Positions 28,757 through 37,806 of a DNA stretch of 64,000 nt are shown here, piece by piece. The translations under genes and the position numbers were made by a program. The stretch's first letter is position 1. Every line of letters starts with the position of its first letter. This DNA is from Bacteroidales bacterium. GTDB taxonomy: Bacteria > Bacteroidota > Bacteroidia > Bacteroidales > F082. Below the pieces are notes generated by a model, which saw only the letters and a program-made list of their open reading frames with translations, was not told the origin of the DNA and did no database searches. The stretch spans positions 1-64,000 of the forward strand of contig JAKIVD010000016.1 of assembly GCA_021647205.1 (NCBI GenBank). Reading direction: 5' to 3'.

Positions 28757-31700
28757 ATGTTGCAACGAAAATACTTAATCTTTTTCACCTTCCTGCTGCT
28801 TTGCCTGACAGGCTACACGATACCTTATACGTTTTCTGAACGAATAAGTTGGCATGCCATCCAAAAATTTGAGGTTCAAGAGGGAGTCTTCATCGAACGT
28901 ATCTCGTTCGAGGGTGCCTATTATTCTGATATTGAGTCGCTGCCTCAATTTGTCAGACTGTTCCCCATTCACACCGAATCAGCTATTGTTAATGTGTTTT
29001 TAACGAATACAACTTTCGTTCCGGCAACCATTGAAGAAACGGAGATCCTTTTGAAATCGGCCAATCCGGGAACCAAAATCAACGTGCAGGGATCAATTGT
29101 TGTTTCGCGGAAGGAGCCTTTTTTGAGGGTTGAAATACTGCCTGTTAAATGGAATGCCGGGAAAAAGATCTTTGAAAAACTGCTTTCCTTTGACATTGTG
29201 GCCGAAGTAGAAGACATCCCCGCCCCCGCTTTCAGGGAATTGACTTCCACCAGTAATTCGGTACTTTCTTCCGGCGACTGGTTTAAGGTAAAAGTGGATA
29301 AGAGCGGAATGTTTAAAATTACTTATGGGGAACTCAAAACGATGGGTTTTGATGTAAGTGCTAACCCGCGGCGATTTGCCGTTTTTGGTAATGGTGGAGG
29401 CGTTTTGCCCGAGAAAAATACCGACTTCAGATATGATGATTTAGTTGAAAACCCCATTGTTGTGGTTGGTCAGGCGGACGGAAGCTTTGATGAAGGGGAT
29501 TATATTTTATTTTATGGCGAAGGCCCGGTTGTGTGGAAATACAACAAATTGACAGATCGCTTTTATCACCAGAATAATTATTACGATGATTATTCCTATT
29601 ACTTTATCACCATCCTGGGGAAGGACGGAAAACGCATTGAAGAAGCCGAACCGCCCGAAGGGCCTTTCGACCTCCAGGTTGAGGATTTTGATGATTACGC
29701 TTATCATGAAATTGACGAAATCAACCTTGCTGGTTCCGGAAGGGTCTGGTACGGGGAAACCTTTGATTTTGAAAATACCTATGAATTTACATTTTCCTTC
29801 CCGAATTTGATTACCCTCTCGGGGACAGGTTATTACAAAGGTAATTTTGGCGCGCGGGCCTTTGAACCGAGTTCGTTTAGTGTATACTTGAATAATGTAC
29901 TGCTGAAAACAGTCGGAATGCCCAAAGTGTCGAGCAGCAACCGTTACCAGATTGCCCAAAAACAGGAAACAGAATTCCCCTTTACACCTAAGAATGAACA
30001 ATTGACAGTTAAACTGGTTTACCAGCGTTCGTCGAGCAGCGCTACCGGTTACCTTGATTATATTGACCTGAATGTCCGGAGAAACCTGGTGATGGCAGGC
30101 AATCAGATGGCTTTCAGAAAAAAAATTAATGCCCAGGATTATTCTGTCGCCCGCTACATTTTGGGCAATGCAAACGCAGGGATTACCGTCTGGGATATTA
30201 CCGAAGCGGTAAACCCGAAAAAAATGAAGACGCAACCCTCTTCGGGAAAACTGATTTTTGATGCCCCTGCAGACACTTTAAGGCAATTTATCGCTTTCGA
30301 CGGACAAGCCTTCTTCCAAACCGAGTTTGTTGCAAAAATTGAAAACCAGAACCTGCACAGTGTTAAAAATGTCGAATACCTTGTTATTTCCCACCCCGAT
30401 TTCTTGACAGAGGCAAAACGCCTCGCAGAATTTCATCGTGCACAGGACGGGATGAGCTATTTTGTCACTACTCCCGAACACATTTATAATGAGTACGCTT
30501 CCGGTTCGCAGGACGTTACGGCCATCCGCGATTTCATCAAAGGCCTGTACGACCACAGTGATGCCGGTAAAGAAGTGAAGTACGTTTTACTTTTCGGCGA
30601 TGCATCCTACGACTACAAAGACCGCATGAGCGACAACACGAATTTTGTCCCCTGCTGGGAGTCGATTGAGTCGCTGAATATTGTGAACTCCATTGCTTCG
30701 GATGACTATTTTGGTTACCTGGACGATGGCGAGGGCATCTCCTCCACCGACAAAGTTGACGTGGGGATTGGCCGTTTTGTTGTGGGCACACCCGAAGAGG
30801 CGGCAATGGCCGTGGATAAATGTATCCATTACGCCACCAATACTGATGTTGTGATGGAACCCTGGCGGAATATTATTACATTCCTCGCTGATGATGAAGA
30901 TGCAAACAGGCACCTGAAAGATGCGGAAATACTTTCCGGTTTTCTGACGGACAACCACCCGGTTTACAATATTGACAAAATTTACCTTGACGCCTACCAA
31001 CAGATATCCACACCTTCCGGCCAGAGGGCGCCGCTGGTCAACCAGGCGGTATTCGATCGCATTGAGCAGGGCACCATGATCTTCAATTATTCGGGTCATG
31101 GTGGTGAGATTGGCCTGGGACATGAACGTTTCCTTACAATTTCGGATATCAATTCATGGAAAAATTATGATAAACTGGCTGTTTTCATTACTGCAACCTG
31201 CGAGTTTAGCCGCTACGACGACCCGACCAGGGTTTCTGCCGGCGAACTGGTTTTCCTGAATGATAAGGGTGGGGGGATTGCCCTGTTTTCAACTTCGAGG
31301 GCGACTTATGCGAGCGCGAACCTGGCGCTAAACCTTGCCATTTTTAAAAACAACATGTTCGACAAAATCGACGGGGAATACCCCCGCTTCGGCGACATCG
31401 TCAGGAACTCGAAGACACTGGGCGGAAGTAACGATAAAAAATTCCTCCTTTTGGGCGACCCTGCACTAAGGATGGCCTATACCGAACATACGGCAAAAAC
31501 GGTAAAAATCAATTCAAACATCATTGTTGAAGATTCCCCTGACACACTCAGGGCTTTGTCGATGGTTAGGATTGAAGGTGTTGTTACCGACGACAAGGGT
31601 GACATCTTATCCGACTTTAACGGGACACTTTTCCCCAGGGTACTCGACAAAGCCGCACAGATAAGAACACTTAAAACAGACCCCGGAAGCATCGTGACGG

Positions 31701-32572
31701 ATTTCTACCTTTATAAAAACCTGCTTTTTAATGGAAAAACAAGCATTGACAACGGCAGCTTCGAATTCGAATTTATGATGCCGAAAGATATTGCTTACAA
31801 ATACGGCTTCGGACGCATCAGCTATTATTTAAAAGATGAAGTGACAGACGGAAACGGTTACTACCAAAACTTTATTATTGGAGGCGTTGACGACAATGCA
31901 CAGGAAGACAATGCAGGCCCTGAAATCACCATGTTTATGAACGATACCACCTTTCTGCCGGGCGGGCGGACAGACGAGAACCCATTGTTGCTGGCATACA
32001 TAGAAGATGAAAGTGGAATTAACACCACGGGCAATGGCATCGGACATGACATAACAGCCGTTATTGACGAGGACCAGAACCTGAGCTTTAACCTGAACAC
32101 TTATTACGAGTCGGAAAAAAACAGTTTCAACAAAGGGACGGTGAATTATCCCTTCAAGGACCTGGAAGACGGTGAACATGTGCTGAGTTTAAAAGTTTGG
32201 GATGTTTACAACAACTCTTCAATAGCCTACCTTAACTTTTTGGTTACCCATACCGAAGACCTCGTTATTGAGAACCTGATGAATTACCCCAATCCCTTTA
32301 TGTCGGAAACCAGTTTCGTTTTCGACCATAACCAATCGGGACAGGAACTGGATGTAAGCATTCAGGTGTTCAATTCGGCGGGAATGCTGGTGCGCACTCT
32401 GGAGTCGCGCATCACATCCGAAAGTTATAAATCGCCGCCTATTAAATGGGATGCCCGGACTGACGGTGGCAGCGTGATTGGAAATGGATTTTACGTTTAT
32501 CGCCTAATTGTAAGGAGGCAGGACGGCAGTACCGCCGAGGCCAGGTCGAAGCTGGTTTTTGTTAAGCGGTAA
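28757..32572 (+). CDS. porU: T9SS C-terminal signal peptidase PorU, first tandem copy
   Basis: This 1271-residue C25 (gingipain-type) cysteine peptidase has the PorU layout: signal peptide, beta-rich N-terminal region, catalytic domain (about 540-925), Ig-like region and C-terminal type A sorting domain (MNYPNPFMSETSFVFDHNQSG ... FYVYRLIVRRQDG). The catalytic pair is H781 (NYSGHGGEIG) and C815 (TATCEFSRYDDP). PorU cuts off cargo sorting domains at the surface and joins cargo to A-LPS. PorU keeps its own sorting domain and binds PorV. A second, clearly homologous PorU follows after 40 bases. It opens a (+) operon porU-porU-porV-ispF, divergent from porP. Confidence 0.94.
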   Translation: MLQRKYLIFFTFLLLCLTGYTIPYTFSERISWHAIQKFEVQEGVFIERISFEGAYYSDIESLPQFVRLFPIHTESAIVNVFLTNTTFVPATIEETEILLKSANPGTKINVQGSIVVSRKEPFLRVEILPVKWNAGKKIFEKLLSFDIVAEVEDIPAPAFRELTSTSNSVLSSGDWFKVKVDKSGMFKITYGELKTMGFDVSANPRRFAVFGNGGGVLPEKNTDFRYDDLVENPIVVVGQADGSFDEGDYILFYGEGPVVWKYNKLTDRFYHQNNYYDDYSYYFITILGKDGKRIEEAEPPEGPFDLQVEDFDDYAYHEIDEINLAGSGRVWYGETFDFENTYEFTFSFPNLITLSGTGYYKGNFGARAFEPSSFSVYLNNVLLKTVGMPKVSSSNRYQIAQKQETEFPFTPKNEQLTVKLVYQRSSSSATGYLDYIDLNVRRNLVMAGNQMAFRKKINAQDYSVARYILGNANAGITVWDITEAVNPKKMKTQPSSGKLIFDAPADTLRQFIAFDGQAFFQTEFVAKIENQNLHSVKNVEYLVISHPDFLTEAKRLAEFHRAQDGMSYFVTTPEHIYNEYASGSQDVTAIRDFIKGLYDHSDAGKEVKYVLLFGDASYDYKDRMSDNTNFVPCWESIESLNIVNSIASDDYFGYLDDGEGISSTDKVDVGIGRFVVGTPEEAAMAVDKCIHYATNTDVVMEPWRNIITFLADDEDANRHLKDAEILSGFLTDNHPVYNIDKIYLDAYQQISTPSGQRAPLVNQAVFDRIEQGTMIFNYSGHGGEIGLGHERFLTISDINSWKNYDKLAVFITATCEFSRYDDPTRVSAGELVFLNDKGGGIALFSTSRATYASANLALNLAIFKNNMFDKIDGEYPRFGDIVRNSKTLGGSNDKKFLLLGDPALRMAYTEHTAKTVKINSNIIVEDSPDTLRALSMVRIEGVVTDDKGDILSDFNGTLFPRVLDKAAQIRTLKTDPGSIVTDFYLYKNLLFNGKTSIDNGSFEFEFMMPKDIAYKYGFGRISYYLKDEVTDGNGYYQNFIIGGVDDNAQEDNAGPEITMFMNDTTFLPGGRTDENPLLLAYIEDESGINTTGNGIGHDITAVIDEDQNLSFNLNTYYESEKNSFNKGTVNYPFKDLEDGEHVLSLKVWDVYNNSSIAYLNFLVTHTEDLVIENLMNYPNPFMSETSFVFDHNQSGQELDVSIQVFNSAGMLVRTLESRITSESYKSPPIKWDARTDGGSVIGNGFYVYRLIVRRQDGSTAEARSKLVFVKR

Positions 32573-32636
32573 CGACTGGCCAAGCCAACGAATTTAGTGT
32601 TTTCTTTGTCAAATGATTGAATGCCTGAAAAAAAAT

Positions 32637-35600
32637 ATGAGAAAAAATACTTCAAACCGTTTACTTCCCTTCTTCATGCTGCTTTTGTTGCCACTGGTCT
32701 TTGTCGGGCAAAAGGAGATGACGGTTCACTTAAACTGGGAAGGAATCCGGTCGCAACAAACCGTTAGGGGGCTGTCAGTAAACTATCTCTCCTTTGAAGG
32801 TGCTACCAATTTGTACGAGTTCGGGGCATTGCCGGTCTATTCATTTTCCATGCCTTCCCCCGGGGAATTTTTAAACTACGAACTCAGCTTTTCCGGCATT
32901 GTTGCCGACACTGTTCCGGAAGAAGTGGCCACAACCCTCACTGACATCGACATGGTCCGCAGCGAAATCCAGTACCGTTTGGTCAGAAACAATGATGGGT
33001 TCAAGCTTTTTATCCTTCCTTTTAGCTTGTCCGAAGATAAAAGCATACTGTTGAAACTCAACAATTTTAATGTACTGGTGGATATTGTCCCTGCCGAAGA
33101 CCACTTGAAAAAGCCGGTGTCGGCAGTTAATTACTCGGGAGAATCGGTATTAAATACGGGAACATGGTTTAAGCTGGGCATCGTGAATACGGGCATCCAC
33201 AAGCTTAGCTACGCAGATTTGCAGAAAATGGGACTTGACCCCGGGCAGATTGCTCCTGACCAACTGGGTATTTTTGGAAATTATTCCGGAATGTTGCCCG
33301 AATACAACGGCGACCCACGGCTTGACGACTTACAGGAAAACACCATCTTTGTTTCGGGAGCGGAGGATGGAAAATTCGATGAGGGTGATTATGTTTTGTT
33401 TTATGCCAAATCAGCGGTTCACTGGCGCTACAATATTTTTACCGGACGTTTCGATCACCGTAACAACCTTTATGCCGATACAACCTTTTATTTTTTCACG
33501 CCTGATAAAGGGAACAACAAACGAATAAGTACGACAAACAGCTCAGAACAAAGCCCCTCCGAAACCATTGACAGCTATTATGACTTTGCAGCCCATGAAC
33601 GCGATCTGGAAAACCTGGTTTATTCAGGGAAAGACTGGTTTGGTGAGCGCCTCAGTCTCGATACCAGCGAGCGGACTTTTACTTTTCATTTTCCCGGCCT
33701 CAAAACCGACCAGCCTGTTTACATGAACTTTGAAATGGTGATAAGGGCATACGAAAATACTTATTACCGCATATTTGTGAACGATGAAATCGTTATCGAC
33801 TCCACCCGGATACTGGCGATTAATAACAATGGCGCTTATGCCCGGGAAACCAAAAAGAAGATCACTTTTTTTGCTGACAGCGAGGACCTCGAAGTCAAAG
33901 TGAAATATTATACAAACCTCGGAACTTCCATTGCCTGGATTGATTTTATTGAACTCAATGTAGAAAAAGAATTGAGGTTCGATGGTGGACAGATGGGCTT
34001 TCGCGACCCCCACACGGCTGCCGCTGGTAACATTACCCGCTTTAACTTCAGCGGGGCACCTGAAAGTTCAACCGTATGGGATATTTCTGATTTCCACAAC
34101 CCGGTTAATGTAAATTACGTCATGGAAGATGATGGCAGTATGCACTTTACGCTCCCTACAGACACCATCCGCGATTTTATTATTTTTGATGAAACATCAG
34201 CCTATTCACCGGTTGTTACCGAAACGGTTGCCAACCAAAACCTGCATGGTATTTCACAAGTCAACCTGGTTGTGGTAAGCCCCGGGATTTTTCTGGACCA
34301 GGCCAGGCGTTATGCCAATATCCATCGCGAACTCGACGGGATGACAGTTGAGGTTGTTTCGCTCGACCAGGTTTACAATGAGTTTTCCTCCGGTTCGCAG
34401 GATGTAAGTGCCATCAGGGATTTCATGCGTATGTTGTGGAAAAAAGGTGCCTTTGGCGGGGAGTCCGGTTTTCTGGCCTTGTTTGGCGACGGTTCCTTCG
34501 ATTATAAATACAGGGTCCGCGATAATACAAACATGGTCCCCACTTACCAGTCCGACAATTCGCTGATACTGACGAAATCTTTCGCAACAGATGATTACTT
34601 CGGCCTGCTCGATGACGATGAAGGCCTGAACGCAAGTGGTATACTTGATATTGGTGTCGGAAGGTTTCCGGTTTCAACAAAGGAACAGGCAAAAACAGCC
34701 ATCGACAAACTGGAGCATTATTTATCCCGCAATGCCGCCGTCATGCGCGACTGGCGCAATGAAATCTGTTTTGTGGCCGATGACCAGGATGGCAACCTCC
34801 ACCTGAAACAAGCCTCCCAGTTGGTTAATATTATCGACACCATCCCGGCCTGGTTTATAACCAACAAAGTTTTTGCCGACGCTTTTACTAAAGTTACCGT
34901 CCCCGGCGGGAAAAGATACCCCGATGTGAGCAAACGGATAAAAGATCAGGTTGAAAATGGTGCGTTAATCGTAAATTATACCGGGCACGGCGGTTTAATC
35001 GGCTGGGCCGAGGAAAGGCTGCTGGAAGTGCCCACAATCAGGGAATGGAAAAACCTTGACAACCTCACCTTATTCATTACGGCAACCTGCGAGTTTAGCC
35101 GCTTTGATGATCCCGAGTTTGTTTCGGCGGGAGAGTATGCCTTCCTAAACGAAGAGGGCGGGGCCATTGCGCTGCTTTCAACAACCCGTCTGGCATTTGC
35201 CGCTGCAAACATTGTAATTAACCGCCGGATTTATTTTCACCTGATGGAACAGGACAAAAACGGGGATTATCTGCGCCTGGGCGATCTGGTACGCTTATCT
35301 AAAAACCCGTCCAGCCCGTTTTATTTGAACTTTACCTTGTTGGGCGACCCTGCCTTACGACTTGCTTATCCAAAATATAATGTGGTCACCACAAAAGTTA
35401 ACAACAAAATAAGCGGTGAGGTGGCCGATACGGTCCGGGGCATGTCGGTTGTTACTGTCAGTGGGGAAATAGTTGACCGCTCTGGAAATAAAATACCTGG
35501 TTTTAATGGTTTTCTTTATCCCAAAGTGTTCGATAAACCCAGTAAATACAAAACACTTGGAAACGATGTGGGAAGTTACCCGGTGGATTTTTACCTGACG

Positions 35601-36464
35601 GATAAAATCCTGTACGCAGGAAAAATAAGTATAATCGATGGCAGTTTTGAATTTACAATACCAATCCCCAAAGATATCTCCTACCAGTACGGTTTTGGGA
35701 AGATCAGTTACTATGCCCTTGATACGGCACAGTTTGTTGATGCCTGGGGAAGTTATGATGAATTGCTCATCGGTGGCCTGGATGAAAATGCCGAGATTGA
35801 TGATACGGGCCCCGAGATTGAAATATACCTTGACGACCATAAGTTTGAACCGGGGATGGTAACATCCAGTAAGCCTTTGCTTATAGCCCATCTTTTCGAC
35901 GAGCAGGGAATCCACTCAACCGGGCAAAGCCTGGGCCGCGATTTGGCCCTTGTGATGGACAAGGACTACAGTAACACCCACATTGTCAACGAATATTTTT
36001 CCCCGGATGTAAATACTTACCAGAGCGGTGAAGTGGAATACCAGCTCAGCAACCTCAGCAAAGGCTGGCACAGCCTTAGCCTGAAAGCCTGGGATTTGCA
36101 GAATAATTCTTCTGAGGAAATTATTGATTTTTATGTGGACGACGATGCCGAAATATTGCTCAGGGAAGTGCTGAATTACCCCAACCCGTTCACAGAAACA
36201 ACCAAGTTCGGATTTATCCATAACAAAAGCGGCACGAAACTAACCGTCGATATCAGGATATACGACATCAACGGGCGGTTTATCGGTGCCCTCAACGAGA
36301 CCGTCAGTACTTCGGGATACCAGATTCAACCCATCCTCTGGAATGGAAGGGATCAAAACGGGCAAGAGGTAAAACCCGGATTGTACACTTACGAAATCTC
36401 GGTAACAGACTTTTATGGAAATGTGAGCGTGCAAAGACAGAAGATGATAAAGTTGGGTGAATAA
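32637..36464 (+). CDS. porU: T9SS C-terminal signal peptidase PorU, second tandem copy
   Basis: This second C25 sortase has 1275 residues from the chosen start and aligns with the upstream copy over its whole length. The catalytic H784 (NYTGHGGLIG) and C818 (TATCEFSRFDDP) are conserved, so this copy also looks active. It ends in a type A sorting domain (LNYPNPFTETTKFGFIHNKSG ... GLYTYEISVTDFYGN). It lies directly upstream of porV, the usual partner. The start at 32637 (MRKNTSNRLLPFFMLL) gives a clean signal peptide. An ATG 24 bases earlier is possible. Most genomes are known to carry one PorU, so a tandem pair with both active sites intact is unusual. Confidence 0.93.
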   Translation: MRKNTSNRLLPFFMLLLLPLVFVGQKEMTVHLNWEGIRSQQTVRGLSVNYLSFEGATNLYEFGALPVYSFSMPSPGEFLNYELSFSGIVADTVPEEVATTLTDIDMVRSEIQYRLVRNNDGFKLFILPFSLSEDKSILLKLNNFNVLVDIVPAEDHLKKPVSAVNYSGESVLNTGTWFKLGIVNTGIHKLSYADLQKMGLDPGQIAPDQLGIFGNYSGMLPEYNGDPRLDDLQENTIFVSGAEDGKFDEGDYVLFYAKSAVHWRYNIFTGRFDHRNNLYADTTFYFFTPDKGNNKRISTTNSSEQSPSETIDSYYDFAAHERDLENLVYSGKDWFGERLSLDTSERTFTFHFPGLKTDQPVYMNFEMVIRAYENTYYRIFVNDEIVIDSTRILAINNNGAYARETKKKITFFADSEDLEVKVKYYTNLGTSIAWIDFIELNVEKELRFDGGQMGFRDPHTAAAGNITRFNFSGAPESSTVWDISDFHNPVNVNYVMEDDGSMHFTLPTDTIRDFIIFDETSAYSPVVTETVANQNLHGISQVNLVVVSPGIFLDQARRYANIHRELDGMTVEVVSLDQVYNEFSSGSQDVSAIRDFMRMLWKKGAFGGESGFLALFGDGSFDYKYRVRDNTNMVPTYQSDNSLILTKSFATDDYFGLLDDDEGLNASGILDIGVGRFPVSTKEQAKTAIDKLEHYLSRNAAVMRDWRNEICFVADDQDGNLHLKQASQLVNIIDTIPAWFITNKVFADAFTKVTVPGGKRYPDVSKRIKDQVENGALIVNYTGHGGLIGWAEERLLEVPTIREWKNLDNLTLFITATCEFSRFDDPEFVSAGEYAFLNEEGGAIALLSTTRLAFAAANIVINRRIYFHLMEQDKNGDYLRLGDLVRLSKNPSSPFYLNFTLLGDPALRLAYPKYNVVTTKVNNKISGEVADTVRGMSVVTVSGEIVDRSGNKIPGFNGFLYPKVFDKPSKYKTLGNDVGSYPVDFYLTDKILYAGKISIIDGSFEFTIPIPKDISYQYGFGKISYYALDTAQFVDAWGSYDELLIGGLDENAEIDDTGPEIEIYLDDHKFEPGMVTSSKPLLIAHLFDEQGIHSTGQSLGRDLALVMDKDYSNTHIVNEYFSPDVNTYQSGEVEYQLSNLSKGWHSLSLKAWDLQNNSSEEIIDFYVDDDAEILLREVLNYPNPFTETTKFGFIHNKSGTKLTVDIRIYDINGRFIGALNETVSTSGYQIQPILWNGRDQNGQEVKPGLYTYEISVTDFYGNVSVQRQKMIKLGE

Positions 36465-36573: not shown

Positions 36574-37806
36574 ATGAAATTAAAGATTTTCCTTACTTTA
36601 GTGATTATTGCTTCATTTTTAAGTGGTTCGTCACAAACCTACAACAACCTTTCAGGACAGGGAAGTGGTGTGAACGTAATTACCACAGCAGTCCCTTTTT
36701 TAATGATTGGGCCTGATGCCCGCGCCGGTGGTTTGGGCGATGGTGGTATTGCTACTTCACCCGATGCCATGTCGATGCACTGGAACCCGGCAAAATATGC
36801 CTTCATCGATCAAAAACTGGGCTTCTCCCTTTCCTATACCCCCTGGCTCCGGAACCTGGTGAACGACATCAACCTGGCCTACCTGACTTATTTTAACAGA
36901 ATAGGGGACATGCAGACCATTGCTTTTTCAATGAGGTATTTTACCCTTGGCGAAATTACTTTTACCGACAACCAGGGCAATAAAATTGGCGATTTTAAAC
37001 CCAACGAATTTGCCTTCGATGGCACTTATTCAAGAAAGCTTTCAGAGAATTTCTCGCTCGCTATTTCGGGGCGTTTTATATACTCTGACCTTACCCAGGG
37101 ACAGAATGTGCAGGGTGTTGAGACGACGGCCGGAATCTCGGTTGCCGCCGATATTGCCATGTACTGGGAAAAAGACGTGGAATGGTTTGAGACCATGGAT
37201 GCCACTTTTGCCTGGGGAATGAATATTTCCAATATCGGAAACAAAATATCCTATTCCACAAGCAATATTGAAAAGGACTTTATCCCTACCAACTTCAGGA
37301 TTGGGCCGCGTTTGACACTTTTCCTTGATGATTACAACAAGATATCTTTCAGTTTCGACATCAACAAACTACTTGTTCCCACACCCCCGATTTACAAACT
37401 GGATTCGTCGGGCAACCCAATCCCCATACCCGGTTCGGACCAGTATGAGATTGAAGCGGGTAAGGACCCCAATGTTCCCGTCATCAGGGGCATGATTCAG
37501 TCGTGGTACGATGCCCCCGGTGGTTTTGGTGAAGAAATGAGGGAGTTTAATTATGCCATTGGTACCGAATACTGGTACAACGATATTTTTGCCGTGCGGG
37601 CCGGTTTCTTCTGGGAAGACAAAACAAAAGGTGCCCGCCGTTATGTTACCCTTGGTGTAGGACTCAGGTACAATGTATTCGGACTGGACTTTTCTTACCT
37701 CGTGCCTGTTTCATCGGTGCAAAACCCCTTGCAGAACACTTTGCGTTTCACCCTTTTGTTTAATTTCGGTAACGTAACGAAAAAGACTACCACCCCGGCA
37801 GGATAA
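36574..37806 (+). CDS. porV: T9SS outer membrane shuttle protein PorV (LptO)
   Basis: This 410-residue FadL-like outer-membrane beta-barrel has a signal peptide ending LSGSSQ. The PorV start is intact (GVNVITTAVPFLMIGPDARAGGLGDGGIATSPDAMSMHWNPAKYAF). PorV binds cargo sorting domains as they leave the Sov translocon and brings them to PorU. It lies after the porU pair. Its stop codon overlaps the ispF start (TAATG). Confidence 0.95.
   Translation: MKLKIFLTLVIIASFLSGSSQTYNNLSGQGSGVNVITTAVPFLMIGPDARAGGLGDGGIATSPDAMSMHWNPAKYAFIDQKLGFSLSYTPWLRNLVNDINLAYLTYFNRIGDMQTIAFSMRYFTLGEITFTDNQGNKIGDFKPNEFAFDGTYSRKLSENFSLAISGRFIYSDLTQGQNVQGVETTAGISVAADIAMYWEKDVEWFETMDATFAWGMNISNIGNKISYSTSNIEKDFIPTNFRIGPRLTLFLDDYNKISFSFDINKLLVPTPPIYKLDSSGNPIPIPGSDQYEIEAGKDPNVPVIRGMIQSWYDAPGGFGEEMREFNYAIGTEYWYNDIFAVRAGFFWEDKTKGARRYVTLGVGLRYNVFGLDFSYLVPVSSVQNPLQNTLRFTLLFNFGNVTKKTTTPAG

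Follow-up and report, generated by a model that had tools for sequence, protein, structure and literature searches.

We found that a 64,000-nucleotide (nt) stretch of a Bacteroidales genome (contig JAKIVD010000016.1; hereafter the window) carries two adjacent, diverged genes for PorU, the sortase of the type IX secretion system (T9SS), directly before porV. The pair is real, ancient and conserved. Both copies look functional from their sequences, and since they stem from an old split and differ near the active site, they may handle different cargo. The upstream copy, PorUA (A), the downstream copy, PorUB (B), and their neighbours are listed below.

28757..32572, + strand: PorUA, upstream, putative core T9SS sortase (C25), 1271 amino acids (aa), His781/Cys815, Thr850, Lys895
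32613..36464, + strand: PorUB, downstream, putative accessory T9SS sortase (C25), 1283 aa, His792/Cys826, Ala861, Asn906
31193..31214 = 35082-35103, + strand: 22-bp identical stretch encoding the catalytic-Cys motif
36574..37806, + strand: PorV, shuttle barrel for type A cargo, NF033710 506.1 bits
27556..28563, - strand: PorP/SprF-family outer-membrane protein, divergently transcribed, TIGR03519 265.2 bits
26035..27519, - strand: GldJ-like lipoprotein, best match TIGR03524 at 440.0 bits, just under the cut-off of 458.2

Two full-length PorU sortases in tandem

An earlier note on this DNA had described two adjacent full-length C25/PorU sortases with intact catalytic His and Cys, clearly diverged but sharing a run of about 20 bases at the catalytic Cys, and each of these points was borne out. 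Both open reading frames (ORFs) are near-complete matches to the PorU model NF033707, His781/Cys815 of PorUA align with His792/Cys826 of PorUB, the proteins are 38% identical, and the shared run measures 22 bp. The PorUB length is counted from the first in-frame ATG; from Met9 it is 1275 aa, and the dyad becomes H784/C818. Other exact DNA matches of at least 14 bp between the two genes numbered just two, each of 14 bp and in conserved motifs. Gene conversion, considered for the 22-bp match, was dropped as it is not needed, because the stretch encodes one of the most highly conserved motifs. The two genes are 40 nt apart, with no terminator-like site found within this gap, and the gene order (gldJ-porP / porUA-porUB-porV) links PorU to both porV and gldJ.

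PorUA and PorUB are PorU-type T9SS sortases by curated model, C25 His/Cys dyad and PorU fold. Against an NF033707 cut-off of 420 bits, PorUA scored 1317.9 bits (residues 169-1268) and PorUB 1221.9 bits (179-1279), and Pfam C25 matched the two at 335.3 and 334.9 bits, respectively. The long-form N-domain model NF052318 (cut-off 40) gave 43.9 bits for PorUA and 26.5 bits, below the cut-off, for PorUB. On the claim that both proteins end in a type A sorting domain the models are divided: NF033707, which extends to the C-terminus, covers the C-terminal end of both, but the generic type A C-terminal domain (CTD) model TIGR04183 (cut-off 23) was marginal for PorUB (23.2 bits) and had no match in PorUA at E 0.001. 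Identity with the NCBIfam family named PorU2 (NF052324) was rejected, the scores being 147.6 bits for PorUA and 153 bits for PorUB against a cut-off of 450. AlphaFold2 models built without the N-terminal 160-170 residues (mean predicted local distance difference test, pLDDT, 82.4 for A and 83.7 for B) both had the Porphyromonas gingivalis PorU entry 6za2 as best PDB match in Foldseek (E 1.3e-83 and 4.5e-80), which was also the best PDB match of both sequences. Full-length TM-scores of about 0.53 indicate that the overall domain arrangement of 6za2 is not exactly reproduced.

Age of the duplication

After removal of identical C-termini (307 rows reduced to 286), 98 upstream and 98 downstream copies were left in the alignment. 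All 98 upstream copies have the catalytic His and Cys intact, as do 97 of the 98 downstream copies (the remaining ORF is truncated) and 87 of 89 singles, where the two exceptions are a Cys-less homologue (see below). The trees do not include L169_B, which is truncated. In a mixture-model tree of 53 rows and 850 columns, support by the Shimodaira-Hasegawa-like approximate likelihood ratio test (SH-aLRT) was 97 for an A clade, 94 for a B clade and 100 for both together with one single, L119, while the class-level singles fell outside, as did several from the order itself. A tree constrained to unite the A and B copies of the window's family in a single clade was rejected by the approximately unbiased (AU) test (91.6 log units, p-AU 0.0011). 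The duplication is therefore not confined to that family but older than it.

A larger FastTree placed 89 pairs with the upstream copy in the A clade and the downstream copy in the B clade, with none swapped, and the B branch was the longer in 85 of them. Sixty-two of these pairs, the genome-sample subset, span 18 families. The 89 were reached from the 98 upstream copies by setting aside six outside both clades and three with a B partner misplaced or missing; L155, a pair from the chimera-like genome G099 (a genus g3 bin with 6% contamination), was retained among them. A root on the Cys-less homologues fell among long B branches, and the tree was re-rooted on a class-level single. As synonymous sites were saturated for both copies, differences by codon position were used in place of the ratio of nonsynonymous to synonymous rates. 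Within genus, these were 0.15-0.19 at positions 1+2 versus 0.54-0.58 at position 3, similarly for A and B. With the dyads kept, the two clades recovered and the copies of one family not each other's closest relatives, a recent or degenerate duplicate is ruled out, and the pair has been maintained for long, as the earlier note had supposed.

Several loci depart from this pattern. The signature of the single L119, placed tentatively close to the base, is B-like or ancestral, and the single L073 fell in the B clade of the FastTree on a long branch and with an outgroup-like signature. Two downstream copies, L093 and L098, were placed in the A clade by FastTree though they carry B-type residues at 849/850/895; the mixture-model tree, which included L093 and not L098, placed L093_B basally in the B clade. 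Either partial gene conversion or a wrong placement may account for these two copies. The pairs outside both clades (L112/L113/L115, L114, L186 and L205) include independent duplications: the two copies of L114 are each other's nearest relatives in the mixture-model tree, and those of L112/L113/L115 form one group in the FastTree. The L114 pair (L114:5343-16768) is a class-level case with two extra PorV-like genes upstream in addition to the usual downstream porV.

Distribution of the pair

The search of related genomes for adjacent C25 pairs beside porV, suggested in the earlier note, returned many tandem loci. By gene order, 198 PorU loci comprised 107 tandem pairs (ORFs of at least 800 aa; median gap 26 nt), one triple (L212, with three tandem porU genes before porV) and 90 singles. 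This set includes the window, two loci of the Cys-less homologue and some genomes represented twice, several singles are cut by contig ends, and since many loci were picked for having two matches the counts are not frequencies. Of the families in the genome sample, 22 have tandem pairs; 20 of these belong to the window's order and the other 2 to the rest of the class. Nearly all named pair loci come from metagenome-derived genomes, either Bacteroidales or Bacteroidota without closer placement. The pair is present in a Lentimicrobiaceae metagenome genome (L172), and two Ancylomarina strain genomes have one copy.

Within the window's family, PorU was found in 99 of 100 sampled genomes, with two or more matches in 76 and one in 23, the Cys-less homologue adding to the matches in some genomes. 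Two or more matches, some on separate contigs or in pieces, were observed in 48 of 170 PorU-positive genomes of the order and in 19 of 184 of the class sample (198 searched in each, the window's own included). Most genomes of the order thus carry one PorU. In a phylum sample with few members of the order, scored on the best two candidates per genome, 195 of 296 genomes were PorU-positive and only the window's own had two. The statement that known T9SS use one PorU accordingly agrees with the phylum sample, but pairs are not rare nearby. In the open-licence literature searched (titles and abstracts, and passages of some papers, e.g. PMC4175972, PMC9143113, PMC10202324) we found no description of a PorU pair and no occurrence of 'PorU2', and the phrase 'two PorU' appeared just in unrelated use or in reference to PorU mutants.

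A signature in the catalytic domain

The residues separating A from B were compared over 1210 columns in 92 A copies, 89 B copies and 68 outgroup singles. The four most divergent columns (A 895, 850, 893 and 849) all lie in the catalytic domain. All 92 A copies have Thr850 and 90 have Lys or Arg at 895; the corresponding B positions hold Ala or Ser (82 of 89) and Asn or His (84 of 89), and the outgroup singles mostly have Val or Ala at 850 (61 of 68) and Asn at 895 (54 of 68). The strict combination (Thr850 plus Lys/Arg895 in A; Ala/Ser plus Asn/His in B) was observed in 81 of 89 pairs, and no pair was identical at 849/850/895. PorUA is the more changed copy at these sites, while PorUB is the more divergent in 1051-1170 and the C-terminal region. 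In a profile alignment, position 850 stands opposite Gln282, in the S1 loop, and 852 opposite Trp284 of the gingipain RgpB, with a shift of one residue possible at such distance; in passages of PMC4357240 and PMC9559808 these two RgpB residues, on loop L5, bond the P1 arginine. A-clade singles elsewhere mostly retain the A-type residues, which makes the pocket of A independent of the presence of B. Lys at 895 also recurs in one copy of other duplications (L112, L113, L115, L205), too few for a claim of convergence.

Loss of PorUB and state of its partners

Twenty-five of the 26 genomes of genus g14 were checked at the locus, giving 15 pairs and 10 singles, the latter with porV directly after A. 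On a tree of A plus PorV this pattern requires at least four changes, which we read as at least three losses of B in g14 if the pair was ancestral there. Eight distinct singles with complete context (L119 tentatively among them) fell in the A clade versus one doubtful case (L073) in B, and by this placement A looks like the core enzyme and B like an accessory. Loss of B is recurrent and loss of A is not clear; B is dispensable in some lineages.

Each of 28 genomes, pair-bearing or not, had one strong PorV match (>360 bits) and one strong PorZ match. The PorV-family search of the window's genome gave 440 bits for the porV of this locus and 166 for the next best; G003 had a second, fairly strong PorV-family match (281 bits), and G196 and G193 each a weak second PorZ match. 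A doubling of the whole attachment complex was not seen among these 28 genomes; each has a single canonical PorV and a single main PorZ, and it is the sortase alone that is doubled. A further C25 protein in the window's genome (G000:C2:125763-134174) lies about 7 kb from the PorZ gene, and the part of it obtained (1082 aa, cut at the end of L005) had no match to NCBIfam PorU2.

A proposed pair of active sortases on one shuttle, and the alternatives

Four points are our inference: both copies are active, the genes of the unit are transcribed together, the signature alters specificity, and the two sortases divide the cargo. In the reading we prefer, porU was duplicated in tandem long ago, within the window's order, yielding a core sortase (A) and an accessory one (B), and purifying selection has preserved the two as active Cys/His signal peptidase-transpeptidases of one porU-porU-porV unit. 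A single PorV would deliver type A cargo, a single PorZ would be available, and the sortase alone would be doubled, with A and B working side by side on cargo from the same PorV. Each would have its own preference for residues at the CTD cleavage site or beside it, or for an acceptor, a proposal based on the consistent A/B differences in the S1 loop (A 849-850) and at residue 895. That two active sortases share one shuttle and differ in cleavage-site or acceptor preference has, in our judgement, close to an even chance of being right. The fuller version, held more tentatively, is that in a Bacteroidales clade one PorV supplies both sortases, whose S1 pockets became different a single time and have remained so, cargo being divided by CTD cleavage-site residue or surface acceptor.

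Several observations weigh against a division of cargo through the S1 pocket. Among the 53 rows, 19 of 50 inner branches are weak, the root included. The B copies of g14 have Thr at 850 in 15 of 15 pairs and the signature breaks down there, and among the 10 B-less g14 species A has the residues of its pair-bearing sisters in 6 and other residues in 4. Differences fixed at 75% per clade were found in 2 of 1210 columns, making the signal local, and the concentration of divergence in the catalytic domain is a column ranking with no formal test. The S1 loop has pLDDT <50 in the A model, and 895 was placed by alignment, not in three dimensions. Loss of B among the g14 sisters does not follow the number of type A cargo proteins, both directions being seen (69-139 type A matches in B-less and 65 to at least 148 in pair-bearing genomes), and no A- or B-specific cargo class was identified.

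Alternatively, B may be a regulatory or structural partner that forms mixed dimers with A (e.g. a latent A:B dimer) and tunes its activity without a cargo set of its own, which we consider somewhat unlikely. The title of entry 6za2 gives P. gingivalis PorU as a latent dimer, and a passage of PMC10202324 has the beta-hairpin of one PorU monomer inhibit the other; the tight co-linear genes, and two sortases alongside a single PorV and a single main PorZ, also suit a shared complex. Nevertheless, the dyad persists in 97 of 98 B copies, all except a truncated one, unlike in the Cys-less PorU homologues of the same family, A stands alone in several lineages, and the four most divergent columns lie within the catalytic domain. 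The heteromeric sortase raised in the earlier note is disfavoured in its obligate form, because A persists alone.

The copies could also be a matter of dosage or backup, two equivalent sortases that serve a large cargo load and have drifted apart; we regard this as unlikely. The fixed differences are few, B has been lost repeatedly without consistent change in A, and genus g3, in which B is missing, had 26-69 type A candidates versus 46-245 in other family members with at least two PorU matches (loose first-look counts; the g3 range is from 11 genomes, one without a PorU match, with G099 set aside). However, a 38%-identical pair across 18 families, never identical at the S1-loop positions, is long-lived for plain redundancy, and cargo number does not split singles from pairs among the g14 sisters. 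As the driver of B retention, cargo number fits genus g3 alone.

A split in which one copy serves type A and the other type B CTD cargo is very improbable, although the window's genome carries both classes (at least 51 type A and 17 type B matches). According to passages of PMC9143113, type B cargo needs neither PorU nor PorV, and those of PMC10202324 have it as probably uncleaved. Counts of type B matches in 36 genomes gave no difference within g14, with 1-4 in the 11 B-less genomes and 1-2 in the 15 pair-bearing ones (one of the B-less, G113, not checked at the locus, and some matches being the CTD of PorU itself). The division of labour suggested in the earlier note is thus plausible from the catalytic-domain signature, but its type A/type B version is not.

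A Cys-less homologue and wider implications

A third PorU homologue was observed in the window's genome (G000:C10:47082-50030; L074:7082-10033). This protein of 983 aa scores 828 bits with NF033707 and ends directly in a generic type A CTD, and its relatives are L255-L265. All 11 copies checked, that of the window's genome included, have another residue in place of the catalytic Cys (8 Gly, 2 Ser, 1 Ala) but keep the His, which suggests a pseudo-sortase that the PorU model would nevertheless name PorU. With such a relative in the same family, not every match to the PorU model can be taken as an active sortase, nor should one PorU per genome be assumed. How PorU picks exported proteins for release versus anchoring is stated to be unresolved in a passage of a 2023 review (PMC10202324). 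A diverged sortase pair on one shuttle, with a sharp signature and close species that lack B, would make T9SS sortase specificity directly testable.

Comparison with known systems

The NF033707 model, with both copies far over its cut-off, does not tell A from B. The putative T9SS sortase PorU2 of NF052324 has a related C25 region, but with scores so far under its cut-off it is a different thing. RgpB is a cargo peptidase, not a sortase. Its structure (1cvr) aligns with PorUA and PorUB in the C25 fold, the catalytic dyad and the S1 loop, but the alignment is limited to the region around the catalytic core. The closer likeness is to P. gingivalis PorU (6za2), with which both copies share the C25 Cys/His dyad, the same aligned domain order and an aligned C-terminal CTD region; the match begins at residue 166 in A and 176 in B, and the 'long form' N-terminal segment lies outside it. 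Unlike P. gingivalis PorU, which is described as a single sortase, the sortase of the window is present as two diverged tandem copies before porV.

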